In this document: in pieces, positions 939 through 8,572 of the stretch
Layout of the letters: every line of letters starts with the position of its first letter
Numbering within the stretch: the stretch's first letter is position 1
Source: Acidobacteriota bacterium
Lineage (GTDB): Bacteria; Acidobacteriota; Blastocatellia; HR10
NCBI GenBank assembly: GCA_030550025.1
Contig: JAUQQC010000003.1
Location: forward strand, 163,464-227,463
Length of the DNA stretch: 64,000 nt
Reading direction: 5' to 3'
Program-made: the position numbers and the translations under genes
Notes under the pieces: generated by a model
Database searches by the model: none
What the model saw: only the letters and a program-made list of their open reading frames with translations
What the model was told of the DNA's origin: nothing

Positions 939-1424
939 CTAGCCAGCGCTCTGGCCCCCCGCCTTTGAGCGTATGGTCGCGAACACCACGTGCATCACCA
1001 TGCCCAGACAGCAGCGGCCCGAAGGGTTTTTGATCTCGCAGGCGCAGCGGCCGGCTTTCACCTGCGCTTTAATGAAATCGGGGATGGTCGTTCGTCCTGT
1101 CGCCCCGATCTCTTCGAGCACCATTTGCTTGGTGATGCCGAAGCAGTAGCAAAGTGGCACCGGATCCTCGGTCTCTTTGATCCCGACGCGGACTTTCACC
1201 TCGCCCTTGTGAAAGTATGAATCGGCCTCGTTCGAGAAATACACGACCGGACACGTGGGCGTCGGGCAGAAGAAATAGGCGGCGTTCATCAGGCGCGCGA
1301 GGGCCGGTTCAGTGAGCAAGTGTTCCATCGTCACTCGCTTCACCGTCTGCCCTTCCTGTCCGCAAATGCGACAACGGGATCGCGCCTTCCGCGGCAGGAC
1401 CGCTCCCGAGCAACATTCGGACAT
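939..1424 (-). CDS. CopZ-like [2Fe-2S]/zinc metallochaperone
   Basis: A 161-residue protein starting at ATG 1424, directly behind a GGAGG. It has a Cys pair at 4-5, a CxxC at 18-21, C53 and C58 around FFCPTPTCPVVYF, then C92-Y-C94, C127-A-C129 and C138-C139. This cysteine pattern matches the N-terminal iron-sulfur and zinc-binding domain of Archaeoglobus-type CopZ, with the second half resembling a BFD-type [2Fe-2S] domain. The HMA domain that normally follows in CopZ is absent here and is instead carried by the neighbour 8 bases upstream. It probably relays a soft metal (Hg, Cu) or supplies electrons in the cytoplasm. The longer frame running upstream to 1967 is a shadow of that neighbour. 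Confidence 0.8.
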   Translation of the reverse strand: MSECCSGAVLPRKARSRCRICGQEGQTVKRVTMEHLLTEPALARLMNAAYFFCPTPTCPVVYFSNEADSYFHKGEVKVRVGIKETEDPVPLCYCFGITKQMVLEEIGATGRTTIPDFIKAQVKAGRCACEIKNPSGRCCLGMVMHVVFATIRSKAGGQSAG

Positions 1425-1432
1425 GCCTCCTC

Positions 1433-2233
1433 TCACAGCTTGGCCTTGAATCCGATTTGGTTGATGGCTTCGATCAACTGCCCGAGAGTGACTTTCGCCG
1501 GATCGAAGGTCAGGACGACCTGCCTCTCCTGGAAGCGCACCTCGACCGCCTTCATCCCATCGAGCCGAGCGAGCGTCTGCCGAACCGATTCGGCACAGCC
1601 TGCGCACGTCATCCCCTCGATGAGGATTGTCGCCGTCATGGTTTTGACGTTGAACCCGGCCTTCCGGATCGCTTCGACTAACTGATCCATCTTCACTCGC
1701 GTCGGATCGTACTCGACAGCGGCTTCGCCTTTTTCGTAGCTCACTATCGCAGACCGCACGCCGGGGATCTCTTTGAATGCAACCTCCACGCGCGCCGCGC
1801 ACCTGTCGCAAGTCATTCCGCTGAGGGCCATCCGTACCCTGGCGAACCGTTCGGCCACCGCTTGCGCGCTTGACGCAGAATGCTCGCTCGCGTGGAGTGC
1901 CGCCCATAGCCGCGCGGAATAATATGGGAATGCCGCAAAGGCCACGATCGCGACTGTGGCGATCCACAGCACGAGCTTACTCCATCGCGAGCCCTCGGGC
2001 ACCGTGCACGCCTCGTCAGCACAAGCGACTCCCCGCTTGCGATAGGTGAGATAAAACGCCACAACGAGCAACGTCACGGTGACACCGAGCCCATACGGTC
2101 GCCACGCTTCGAATACGGCGACTGCACCGAAACTGCCCAGGCCAAGCAGCACAGCCGCAAGTGGCCAAAGACAACAAAGCGATGCCGTGACCGCGGCGAC
2201 GAGTGATGCCCCCAGTGCGAGTTTCTCCTTCAT
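1433..2233 (-). CDS. MerT-type metal transporter fused to two HMA domains
   Basis: A 266-residue protein. Residues 1-110 form a three-helix MerT-like membrane domain with the paired cysteines C20-C21 in helix 1 and a cytosolic pair C71/C76. Two heavy-metal-associated domains follow, each with GMTCxxC (C142/C145 and C210/C213). MerT normally takes Hg(II) from a separate periplasmic MerP; here two MerP-like domains are built in. After helix 3 both should lie on one side of the membrane. AGGAGG sits 8 bases before the ATG, and a MerR-type promoter lies just upstream. The CopZ-like gene follows directly, so the two probably form one operon. No mercuric reductase is in the window, so other soft metals are possible. 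Confidence 0.85.
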   Translation of the reverse strand: MKEKLALGASLVAAVTASLCCLWPLAAVLLGLGSFGAVAVFEAWRPYGLGVTVTLLVVAFYLTYRKRGVACADEACTVPEGSRWSKLVLWIATVAIVAFAAFPYYSARLWAALHASEHSASSAQAVAERFARVRMALSGMTCDRCAARVEVAFKEIPGVRSAIVSYEKGEAAVEYDPTRVKMDQLVEAIRKAGFNVKTMTATILIEGMTCAGCAESVRQTLARLDGMKAVEVRFQERQVVLTFDPAKVTLGQLIEAINQIGFKAKL

Positions 2234-2382: not shown

Positions 2383-2529
2383 TCATATCCGCTCCACGAC
2401 GCGCTCCTCATAGAGCCGGTAGCCACTCTGCGTTCGGGCCGGCTTTGGCACAAGTCCAAGCCGTTCGTAGTAGCGAAGGGTATCAACACTGACGCTGCTG
2501 CGAGCGGCCACATGCCCGATTCGCAGCAT
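2383..2529 (-). pseudogene. Truncated MerR-family regulator (DNA-binding part only)
   Basis: From ATG 2529, behind AGGAGGGAGAG, the frame encodes 48 residues that closely fit a MerR helix-turn-helix: IGHVAARSSVSVDTLRYYERLGLV, then the wing SGYRLYEE. It stops with TGA after VVERI, exactly where a MerR protein would continue into its second HTH helices and the long dimerisation helix. None of the three downstream frames restores MerR sequence before the operon promoter, so this is a deletion rather than a simple frameshift. It lies directly upstream of a MerR-type operator and was probably its original regulator. A functional mini-protein cannot be excluded. Confidence 0.7.
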
Positions 2530-2591: not shown

Positions 2592-2613
2592 GGAGCGCCC
2601 TCGCGGGCGCTCC
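2592..2613 (-). terminator. Hairpin, probable terminator after the Cys-rich peptide gene
   Basis: A perfect 9-base inverted repeat (GGAGCGCCC/GGGCGCTCC) with a TCGC loop lies 22 bases past the stop of the small Cys-rich gene on the minus strand. It is followed by TTTCATCAGTT, a weak T tract. It separates the MerR/Cys-peptide pair from the MerR fragment and mer-like operon. Confidence 0.55.
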
Positions 2614-2635
2614 CCAGACCAGTCGCCTCACCGTC

Positions 2636-2812
2636 TTATTTCGTTATCGGGCACGCGTCCCGACAGATAAGCTTCCCTGTGAGCGGGCAAACGATCCGCC
2701 CAGGACAGCTCGATGGGTTCCCTGAGGCTTTGAACCCATAGAGCACACCCGTCCCGAGCGCCGCGCTCAAGAAAACCAGAAGCATGAGCCGTCGTATGCG
2801 TGACATCGCCAT
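2636..2812 (-). CDS. Small exported Cys-rich protein coupled to MerR (58 aa)
   Basis: The frame starts at ATG 2812 inside the TAATG overlap with the MerR stop, with AAAGGAGGGG just upstream, so translation is probably coupled. The protein has a basic start (MAMSRIRRL), a hydrophobic helix (LMLLVFLSAALGTGVLY, about 9-25) and a compact tail with four cysteines at 36, 42, 50 and 54, in the pattern CPGRIVCPLTGKLICRDACP. It would be exported or membrane-anchored, with the cysteine cluster outside. A small metal-capture peptide is the obvious idea given its neighbours, but no experimentally known family is recognised with confidence. The overlapping longer frame from 2840 is rejected because it lacks these features. 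Confidence 0.75.
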   Translation of the reverse strand: MAMSRIRRLMLLVFLSAALGTGVLYGFKASGNPSSCPGRIVCPLTGKLICRDACPITK

Positions 2813-3258
2813 TATCCCCTCCTTTGATGAAAGTGATCAAGTCGAGCCAGCGTCATGATCAGCGAGCAGACCGCTTCGGAGGAATCCGCCTGATCGGGCA
2901 ACGCCTCCAGAGCGCGAACGGCAGCAGCCAGCTCGCGGCGAAAGGCTCGCAGCTCGGTGATCCGTTGATCGAGCAGCTGGAGTTTCTTTCGAAATAGCTC
3001 CCGCACCCGCGCGCATGGAGATCGCCCCGCCCGACTGAGGGCGATCAGCTCCCGAATCTCCCCAAGCGAGAATCCCAAGCCTTGCGCCGCTCGAATGAAC
3101 CGCAGTCGCCCTAGCGCATCGTCCCCGTAGAGCCGATAGCCCGAGGGCGTGCGGGGTGGTCGTTCCAACAACCCCTCCCGCTCATAGTACCGAATCGTCT
3201 GGGGCGTCACCCCGACGGCCCGCGCCAACTCGCCAATATAGAACCGCTCGCCCGACAT
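2812..3258 (-). CDS. MerR-family heavy-metal-responsive regulator
   Basis: A 148-residue protein with the full MerR layout. An HTH covers residues 7-31 (IGELARAVGVTPQTIRYYER), a wing with SGYRLY lies at 39-44, the second HTH has RLRFIRAAQGLGFSLGEI, and a long dimerisation helix spans about 84-120. C82 is at the position of the first mercury ligand of MerR. There is no Cys at 117, but C131 and the C-terminal His pair H142/H144 could complete a site, so the metal is not certain. It shares a TAATG overlap with the Cys-rich peptide gene, and its own promoter carries a dyad it probably binds. Confidence 0.85.
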   Translation of the reverse strand: MSGERFYIGELARAVGVTPQTIRYYEREGLLERPPRTPSGYRLYGDDALGRLRFIRAAQGLGFSLGEIRELIALSRAGRSPCARVRELFRKKLQLLDQRITELRAFRRELAAAVRALEALPDQADSSEAVCSLIMTLARLDHFHQRRG

Positions 3259-3280: not shown

Positions 3281-3312
3281 ATTATAAACCTTGCAGCGAA
3301 CTGCAAAGTCAA
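3281..3312 (-). promoter_or_regulatory. Promoter with 20-base spacer and perfect dyad upstream of merR
   Basis: Minus strand -35 TTGACT (3312-3307) and -10 TATAAT (3286-3281) flank a 20-base spacer. Within it is a perfect palindrome, TTGCAG-TTCG-CTGCAA (3306-3291). Overlong spacing plus a centred dyad is typical of a MerR-regulated promoter, so MerR probably activates itself and the Cys-rich peptide. The dyad differs from the one at 2276-2295. Confidence 0.75.
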
Positions 3313-6039: not shown

Positions 6040-7008
6040 TCACACCGTGATGTTCACGATCCGGCGAATCATGAGCACGCCTAGCCCTTCGAACACCAAC
6101 GCCATGAGCGCCATGGCTCTCCCCACCGGATGGGTGAAGAGCAGCTCGATGTAGTCCGGGCTGACCAGATAGATGTAAAACGCCAACGCGAACGGGATCA
6201 GGCCGATGATCCATCCCGTCATCCGCCCTTGCGCCGTGTAGACGCGCACCTGCCCGAGAATGCGAAACCGATCCCGAATGACCATGGCGATATTCTCCAA
6301 GATCTCGGCTAGGTTCCCTCCGGTCTCCTTCTGGATGAGAATGGCCGTCACGCAGAGCCGAAGGTCGAGAAGCGGCACGCGCTCGATCAAATGCTCCAGG
6401 GCCACCTTCAGACTCATCCCGAGGTTCTGTTCCTCGAACGTGCGGCGAAACTCCTTGGCGATCGGGTCGGGCATCTCAGTGGCCACCGTATTGAGCGCGC
6501 TGCCGAATGCGTGACCGGCACGCAGGGCGCGCGTCATGAGATCGAGCGCGTCCGGGAGCTGCTCCAAGAATTGATTCAATCGGCGTCGTCGCACGCGCAC
6601 GAGGTAGATGATCGGCGCTGCCCCAGCGAGCGCGCCCGTGACCGCCGTCACTAGCAGCGATCCTCGAACGAGCCACATGAAAGCCCCTACGCCCACGGCC
6701 AAGCCGAGGACCAGCATCAGCAGCTGATGCGGACGAATGTTGACGTCCGCTTGTTCGATCAATCGAAATAACTCGTTGCCCAACCGAAAGCGTAGGGCGA
6801 GCCGCTGCAACCACGGGAGCTGGCCCTCGATCTCCGCACGCAGGATCTGAATCGCCTCCTCGGTCGTCCTCCCGGCCGTCTCCGATCGCAGCAGACTCTC
6901 CAGTCGCTTGTACATGACGCGCTGGTACTCCTCCTGCCCTCGCACCAGGAGCAAATAGAGCCCGAAGGCGAAGAGGCTGAATGTCACAAGAATGAAGAGG
7001 ACGAGCAT
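6040..7008 (-). CDS. tadB: Tad pilus inner-membrane platform protein TadB
   Basis: A 322-residue GspF-family protein with an N-terminal helix (LFILVTFSLFAFGLYLLL), a central pair of helices, and the family phrases QLPDALDLMTRALRAGHAF and KETGGNLAEIL. Two C-terminal helices close it. It is the second GspF-like subunit of the Tad apparatus and pairs with TadC. It lies 16 bases after tadA in the operon. Confidence 0.92.
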   Translation of the reverse strand: MLVLFILVTFSLFAFGLYLLLVRGQEEYQRVMYKRLESLLRSETAGRTTEEAIQILRAEIEGQLPWLQRLALRFRLGNELFRLIEQADVNIRPHQLLMLVLGLAVGVGAFMWLVRGSLLVTAVTGALAGAAPIIYLVRVRRRRLNQFLEQLPDALDLMTRALRAGHAFGSALNTVATEMPDPIAKEFRRTFEEQNLGMSLKVALEHLIERVPLLDLRLCVTAILIQKETGGNLAEILENIAMVIRDRFRILGQVRVYTAQGRMTGWIIGLIPFALAFYIYLVSPDYIELLFTHPVGRAMALMALVFEGLGVLMIRRIVNITV

Positions 7009-7024
7009 GGGCCCCCCTCCATCC

Positions 7025-8572
7025 TCACCGCGCGCCGTAATGCTCGAACCACACGGATTCGCCCGTCCCCAACTCCACCGCGTCGTCGAAGAGGGTGCTG
7101 GGGAGTCGGAAGCCCGAGCGCTCGAGTTTATCCGCGAACTTCGGGCGAATGCCCGTGGCGCGGAACCGACCGATCACGCGGCCGTCCTCAGCCACGCCCA
7201 ACCGCTCGAAGAAGAAGATCTCCTGCATAGCGATCACGTCCCCCTCCATCCCGGTGATCTCGCAGATGGAGACGATCTTGCGCGAGCCATCGCTCAGGCG
7301 CGCCGCCTGGATGATCAGGTTGATCGCCGAGGCGATCTGTTGCCGAATGGCGCGATCCGAAAGGTTCAGCCCGGCCATCGAGACCATCGTCTCCAAGCGC
7401 GAGAGCGCGTCGCGCGGGGAATTGGCGTGAATCGTCGTCAGACTCCCATCGTGCCCCGTGTTCATCGCCTGGAGCATATCAATGGCCTCGGGACCGCGCA
7501 CCTCACCGACGACGATGCGATCCGGACGCATGCGCAAGCTATTGCGCACCAGATCGCGCTGCGTCACCTCGCCCTTCCCCTCGATGTTCGGCGGTCGCGT
7601 TTCCAGCCGCACGACGTGTTCCTGCTGCAACTGCAATTCCGCCGAATCTTCGATCGTGATGATCCGCTCGTCGTTCGGGATGAAGGAGGAGAGGACATTG
7701 AGCAGCGTCGTCTTGCCGGCCCCGGTGCCGCCGGAGATGATGATGTTCAACCGGCACCTCACGCATCCTTCGAGCAGGTAGGCGATCTCCGGCGTCAACG
7801 TTCCCCGTCGGATCAACTCGTCAATGGTCGGACGGATCGTCCCGAATCGCCGAATGGAGAGGATCGGCCCATCAATAGCCAAGGGCGGGATGATCGCATT
7901 CACGCGCGAGCCATCCGGCAGTCGCGCGTCCACCATGGGCGAGGCCTCATCAATGCGCCGACCAACGCGCGAGACGATCCGATCAATGATCTGCATGAGA
8001 TGATCATTGTCTTTGAACTGCACGTCGGTGAGATAGAGCTTGCCGAAGCGCTCCACGTAGACTTGCCGATACGTGTTGACCAGGATATCTGAGATCGTCG
8101 GATCGTTCAGAAGCGGTTCCAGAGGACCGAGTCCGAACAGCTCATCGCGAATCTCGGCGATCAATCGCTCCCGCTCGGCCATACTGAGCGGCGTCGCCTC
8201 CGCCTCCAGCATGCGCTCGACGATCTGCGCGATTTGAGCTTGCAGGAGGCTCGGCTCGATCTTCTCCAACCGCGTCAGATCCAGCCGGTTGATCAGGTCC
8301 CGATGAATCTTCGTCTTCAGCGCCTGATATTCTTCCAGGCGCGCGGGCGCTGGCCGTCGCGTCCCCACCGGAGCATATCGAGGCTCCTCACTCCCCGAAG
8401 GTCCACGCTCGCGCGAGAACGCGGCCGATTCCTTCGACGGCTCGAAGGGGGCCACGCGCTCCACCTCCGAGGCCCGTCCCTCGCCCGATTCGCGCGCGTG
8501 ACCATTGGCCCCATTCCCCTCGGGCTCCATCGCCGGAGCGAACCGTCTTAAGCGATTCTTCAACACGCTCAT
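7025..8572 (-). CDS. tadA: Tad pilus assembly ATPase TadA/CpaF
   Basis: A 515-residue cytoplasmic secretion ATPase. The first 80 residues are polar and poorly conserved. The N-terminal domain follows, and then Walker A (GGTGAGKTT, 281-289), the Asp box with TIEDS (306-310), Walker B (RIVVGEVRG, 352-360) and the His box [11 protein letters not shown] (374-384). This order is diagnostic of CpaF-type ATPases, which power extension and often retraction of Flp pili. Its start overlaps the stop of tadZ by 4 bases, so translation is likely coupled. Confidence 0.95.

Follow-up and report, generated by a model that had tools for sequence, protein, structure and literature searches.

A 58-residue, Cys-rich peptide encoded directly behind a merR gene in the window (the whole 64,000-nucleotide stretch of Acidobacteriota DNA analysed here) is a real gene, and we read its product, with a probability of about 0.6, as a small exported peptide that binds metal through Cys thiolates and serves a mer-type operon under MerR control, where it would buffer a soft metal (probably Hg(II)) or hand it to the transporter MerT. 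Beyond the peptide and regulator named in a preliminary description of this DNA, we find that the gene is part of a larger mer-type operon with a MerT-HMA-HMA fusion and a CopZ-like chaperone, and that it has relatives with a duplicated motif as well as relatives of a second type. The operon is laid out in the following order:

3281..3312, minus strand: MerR-family promoter/operator, TTGACT-N20-TATAAT with the dyad TTGCAG-TTCG-CTGCAA in its spacer (from sequence; the 20-bp spacer and dyad recur in relatives)
2812..3258, minus strand: merR1, MerR-family metal regulator of 148 aa ending in TAA (Pfam MerR_1, 4.8e-21)
2818..2825, minus strand: strong Shine-Dalgarno sequence AAAGGAGG of the peptide gene, within the 3' end of merR1 and 5 nt upstream of the ATG (read from the sequence)
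2636..2812, minus strand: putatively exported Cys-rich peptide of 58 aa, C-x5-C-x7-C-x3-C (ORF, alignment, substitution pattern, homologues)
2592..2613, minus strand: perfect 9-bp GC hairpin, GGAGCGCCC-GCGA-GGGCGCTCC, after the peptide gene, followed by only a short T run (read from the sequence)
2383..2529, minus strand: merR2 remnant of 48 aa (Pfam MerR, 6.7e-17; intact, at 163 aa, at the same place in L003, 6193-6684)
1433..2233, minus strand: MerT-HMA-HMA fusion of 266 aa, mercuric-type transport protein (NF033556 MerTP_fusion, 186.8 bits against a cut-off of 180; Pfam MerT, 3.8e-13; two HMA stretches)
939..1424, minus strand: CopZ N-terminal-type [2Fe-2S]/zinc metallochaperone of 161 aa (NF047645, 151.5 bits against a cut-off of 100; Pfam zf_CopZ, 1.2e-19)

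The marks by which we recognise a mer-type operon are all found here: a promoter with a 19-20 bp spacer and a dyad, a MerR-family regulator, and a MerT-family transporter that scores above the cut-off of its model. The congener L003 has the same gene order with merR2 intact, and because the intact gene sits at the same place, the 48-aa copy in the window reads as one that decayed recently. The hairpin is possibly a weak terminator or attenuator between the merR1-peptide pair and the transport genes.

The peptide ORF (2812..2636, minus strand; MAMSRIRRLMLLVFLSAALGTGVLYGFKASGNPSSCPGRIVCPLTGKLICRDACPITK) starts, as had been described, inside the merR1 stop codon: the A of its ATG is the last base of the TAA (TAATG). 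Because of this overlap, and because AAAGGAGG lies 5 nt upstream inside merR1, translational coupling of the two genes is likely, and the co-translation proposed earlier is further supported by conservation and synteny in two phyla. The Cys spacing previously given is exact (C36-x5-C42-x7-C50-x3-C54), and the longer shadow frame said to cover the gene does exist (2840..2628, 70 aa, TTG start). Four of the five genomes sampled from the genus carry the gene (it is absent from G323), and the congeneric homologues are 68-90% identical. Comparing the window with these relatives, pN is 0.09-0.13 and pS 0.33-0.59 in the peptide frame, with a sharper difference over the Cys core (pN 0.03-0.07, pS 0.42-0.66), and in both shadow frames pN exceeds pS. 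Because purifying selection acts in the peptide frame and not in the shadow frames, we reject a spurious shadow ORF and conclude that this is a real gene.

A contig search with the peptide returned seven relatives, three from Acidobacteriota (L001-L003, same-genus genomes as judged by matching positions) and four from Planctomycetota MAGs (L004-L007). Aligned together, the eight sequences share 15 invariant residues, the run CPGRIVCPLTG followed by C50, D52, C54 and P55; this invariance holds for these eight, with some positions relaxed on wider sampling, and more distant Planctomycetota homologues retain the Cys core. Across 23 loci, what we call type A has the core CPGxIxCPxTGxxxCxDxCP, single or duplicated and with few deviations; the window peptide carries this core behind a hydrophobic N terminus and beside merR. 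Many Planctomycetota members have the motif twice (8 core Cys) and end in CC. Type B (13 loci) has CPLTGEELPCPxCCPLN or CPLTGEQIPxCCCP and was recognised through the same kind of locus; the common CPLTG...CP motif and the synteny suggest that it is homologous to type A. Profile searches, which sampled two phyla, place the family in 15 of 392 Planctomycetota and, of 396 Acidobacteriota, convincingly in G005 besides the genome of the window (weak hits in G099, G224 and G287 looked like chance when the sequences were read).

The peptide had been called new-looking, and the searches bear this out. Even at an E-value limit of 1 its sequence matches nothing in Pfam or NCBIfam, none of their models matches the family above its cut-off (a weak EGF match to one relative, at 0.0034 and below the cut-off, was ignored), no PDB relative is convincing (best E 0.08), and the published literature searched yielded nothing relevant on either the motif or a peptide of this kind. 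The CPLTG peptide family thus appears to be undescribed in the libraries and literature searched. We also considered mobile cargo: tblastn with three family members gave no match in 72,556 plasmid records, and the viral contigs held no relative of the peptide, so both plasmid and phage cargo were rejected.

All 26 peptides analysed have a Lys/Arg n-region and an N-terminal hydrophobic stretch of about 17 residues, without a lipobox, and in all but one of them every Cys lies past this stretch; in the window peptide it spans 17 residues with a Kyte-Doolittle mean of 2.1. We infer from these features that the peptide is exported, in keeping with the preliminary description and with the conservation and synteny across two phyla. 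The same description called it signal-anchored; the signal-like N terminus stands, and it may be either a cleaved signal or an anchor. The AlphaFold model (pLDDT 64, low confidence) has a helix followed by strands at 39-41 and 48-50, which hints at a hairpin; at this pLDDT the model is too weak for a fold search, and identification by fold was given up.

The preliminary description implied that homologues with a conserved Cys pattern should occur beside merR elsewhere, and they do so in quantity, in both phyla. By our reading of the gene and domain tables (23 type-A and 13 type-B loci), merR is the direct neighbour of the peptide at 22 of the 23 type-A loci (in L007 as a partial gene at the contig edge), and at the remaining one, L068, the frameshifted end of a merR lies beside it. 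A MerT or MerC transporter lies nearby at 18 of 23 (MerC in L006 and L071), and the usual Planctomycetota order is merR, peptide, CopZ-MerT-HMA fusion. The 20-bp spacer and dyad recur upstream of merR or of the peptide in L001, L002, L004, L059, L063-L066 and L073, standing immediately before the peptide in L004, L059 (Acidobacteriota), L063-L066 and L073. Type-B loci are mostly the same kind of operon: merR adjoins the peptide in 7 of 13 (overlapping by 4 nt at the merR stop in L191 and L192) and lies farther off within the same locus in 3; in 2 the neighbour is a CsoR-family repressor (PF02583), and the last is a short contig with CopZ and no regulator. In L002 the gene after the peptide resembles an outer-membrane barrel (PF13557, 9.3e-8); L004, L062 and L063 have similar ORFs, which lack a Pfam match.

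Several of these loci hold further genes that we record here. In L068 the merR fragment and the peptide are separated by a predicted lipoprotein (6644-7171) that weakly matches the YHS domain (28.1 bits, cut-off 30.3). The type-B locus L076 (6250-8654) contains a fusion of HMA and MerC, a Cys-rich protein resembling a helical bundle, and a barrel-like ORF. An uncharacterised protein of about 130 aa (L002 7341-7733, L001 7939-8331) belongs to the mer island of HRbin08/HRbin10 and resembles, by eye, an ORF of L062 (10858-11283).

Turning the question around, we asked how often CopZ-type loci carry the peptide. It is found in 19 of 40 Planctomycetota CopZ-MerT loci against 0 of 12 with stand-alone CopZ (Fisher p 0.0017, a guide only, as the loci are related by descent and some were reached by way of genomes that carry the peptide); the MerT domain is detected in 38 of the 40, and in L075 and L093 it is truncated or escapes detection. 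Among the 30 Acidobacteriota CopZ loci scanned, only the window has it. Since about half of the Planctomycetota CopZ-MerT loci and nearly all of the Acidobacteriota ones lack the peptide, it is an accessory that goes with operons of the transport type.

What argues for a metal binder is the invariant Cys core, kept in two phyla under purifying selection; the recurrent linkage with merR, MerT or MerC and CopZ, with the operator directly before the peptide in some relatives; the lipobox-free hydrophobic N terminus of 26 of 26 peptides, with the Cys beyond it in all but one; and the barrel-like gene of L002 with its counterparts in L004, L062 and L063. Against it stand the two type-B peptides that adjoin CsoR-family repressors and not merR, the low AlphaFold pLDDT, the distance between merR1-peptide and MerT in HRbin10 and HRbin08 (where the pair lies 2-5 kb from merR2-MerT), and the hairpin before the transporter in the window. 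From this balance we infer metal binding by the peptide and, one step further, transfer of the metal to MerT. The preliminary description proposed extracytoplasmic metal capture or sensing; Cys conservation and synteny in two phyla favour capture. Sensing finds no support: MerR binds its metal in the cytoplasm, and the company that the peptide keeps, MerT/MerC transporters and CopZ-like chaperones, suggests handling or transport.

As a mechanism, entry of a soft divalent metal (probably Hg(II)) into the cell would lead MerR1 to activate the N20-spaced promoter upstream of merR1, and the merR1-peptide transcript would be translated as a coupled pair. The N-terminal hydrophobic signal would then take the peptide over the inner membrane so that the CPGRIVCPLTGKLICRDACP segment faces the periplasm, where four Cys around the CPxTG turn could ligate the metal. 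The captured metal may be buffered there or passed to the HMA and Cys sites of MerT-HMA-HMA, after which the CopZ-like chaperone would take it in the cytoplasm.

The last steps are where the strongest competing account departs: the peptide may be a sacrificial sponge that sequesters metal outside the inner membrane and protects the cell with no hand-over to MerT. We hold this to be a real possibility, clearly behind the reading given at the outset. The motif duplication in many Planctomycetota (8 core Cys and the C-terminal CC) and the solitary regulator-peptide pairs, with no MerT nearby in L189-L192, favour it, as do the separation from the transporter in HRbin10 and HRbin08 and the hairpin behind the peptide in the window. 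Operon order, on the other hand, favours transfer to MerT: in Planctomycetota the gene that follows the peptide is usually the CopZ-MerT fusion, and the operator often lies just ahead of the peptide. The type-B peptides of L189 (3899-4165) and L190 (3988-4176) are the two that adjoin CsoR/RcnR-family repressors (PF02583) in place of merR.

A second question is which metal is bound. Hg(II) is likely, because the transporters are of the MerT and MerC families, because MerR partners in many Planctomycetota have the Cys spacing C...C-x8-C, like the Hg triad (whose numbering we take to be C82, C117 and C126), and because a true MerA occurs at some loci. One is L136, where a type-B peptide is found with two merR, CopZ-MerT, HMA and MerA (500.1 bits, cut-off 454.45); in HRbin10 and HRbin08 a true merA lies about 20 kb from the peptide on the same contig. 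We did not count the GR/MerA-like flavoproteins next to L065 and of HRbin10 (L129 305-1672, between MerT-HMA and a CopZ-like gene), as they score under the MerA cut-off. The assignment is held back by the host itself. In a family search of its genome for MerA the best TIGR02053 match reaches 297.8 bits, short of the cut-off of 454.45, so that the MerA of a classical Hg(II)-reducing system is found in the relatives L136, HRbin10 and HRbin08 and not here; in alignments MerR1 keeps the C82 equivalent and one C-terminal Cys and lacks the C117 equivalent, and its TIGR02051 score of 103.6 bits is under the cut-off of 150.85, so that neither triad nor equivalog score marks it as an Hg(II)-specific MerR. 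Import of Hg without reduction would be harmful to the cell.

These same facts leave some room for a different soft metal, Cu(I), Zn(II), Cd(II) or Pb(II), which the operon would acquire or export and the peptide would bind in the periplasm. Zn-responsive and MerR models give MerR1 about the same score, under both cut-offs; copper proteins are common among CopZ-type chaperones and HMA domains; and type B also adjoins CsoR-family repressors. We nevertheless consider another metal unlikely, given that the MerT and MerC families are annotated as mercury transporters, that L136 has a true MerA, and that the Planctomycetota MerR partners have the Hg-type spacing.

It is improbable that the Cys pairs serve thiol-disulfide chemistry, keeping the Cys of MerT or HMA reduced, in place of metal ligation. 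The partners in L070 and L071 invite the thought, as thioredoxin-like DF-family (seleno)protein domains adjoining the peptide are fused to MerT-HMA (L070 9200-10201) and to MerC (L071 178-1140). However, the type-A core has no CxxC active-site motif, its four invariant Cys around the CPxTG turn, of which three precede a Pro, resemble a metal knuckle, and the variation in repeat number fits binding capacity. Finally, high-GC DNA is rich in shadow ORFs and the 70-aa frame does overlap the peptide, but selection limited to the peptide frame and homologues in two phyla make a chance ORF with fortuitous Cys codons hardly credible.

The putative metal-binding peptide has partial counterparts among known systems. 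Like MerP (the periplasmic mercuric ion-binding protein; TIGR02052, HMA fold), it is a short, apparently exported protein with Cys residues whose gene accompanies MerT under the control of MerR; unlike MerP, it has no HMA domain or GMTCxxC, carries four Cys in a core of about 20 residues, and matches no family model. The MerTP fusion and MerT_CopZ_Se transporters (NF033556, NF045683) occur in the same operons, and the window's own transporter passes NF033556, but these are membrane proteins, whereas the peptide is a separate, unmodelled gene present in part of such operons. The CopZ N-terminal [2Fe-2S] metallochaperone (NF047645, zf_CopZ) shares its operon and Cys-rich metal handling, yet is larger, lacks an export signal and has no sequence relationship to the peptide. 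Small, Cys-dense metal binders, sometimes near metal regulators, also occur among the bacterial metallothioneins and the Csp copper-storage proteins; we would set these apart by their other Cys pattern, the peptide having a signal-like N terminus and no helical-bundle sequence.

MerR-controlled MerT transport is a known type of system, and the peptide is probably a part of it that catches metal and has been overlooked. In Planctomycetes, Christakis et al. list MerA in one genome only (PMC8261052), and most CopZ-MerT operons for this reason probably work without it. More tentatively, and with the odds somewhat against so broad a claim, the CPLTG peptides of types A and B could form a widespread, undescribed class of exported metal binders. 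In Planctomycetota and some Acidobacteriota they would then act as an alternative first component when metal is taken up or detoxified in the mer manner, and might receive it from a barrel in the outer membrane and pass it on to CopZ-MerT fusions; as these organisms mostly lack MerA, their operons would do something other than classical Hg reduction.

Mer operons are a textbook system, and here is a conserved, apparently exported component that has no Pfam or NCBIfam model, is absent from the literature searched, and is short enough for gene callers to miss. Its naturally repeated 20-residue, four-Cys module would offer a practical metal-binding scaffold. If the peptide binds Hg(II), it would add a periplasmic binder other than MerP to mercury handling, and the function of the MerA-less MerT-CopZ operons would become a testable question.
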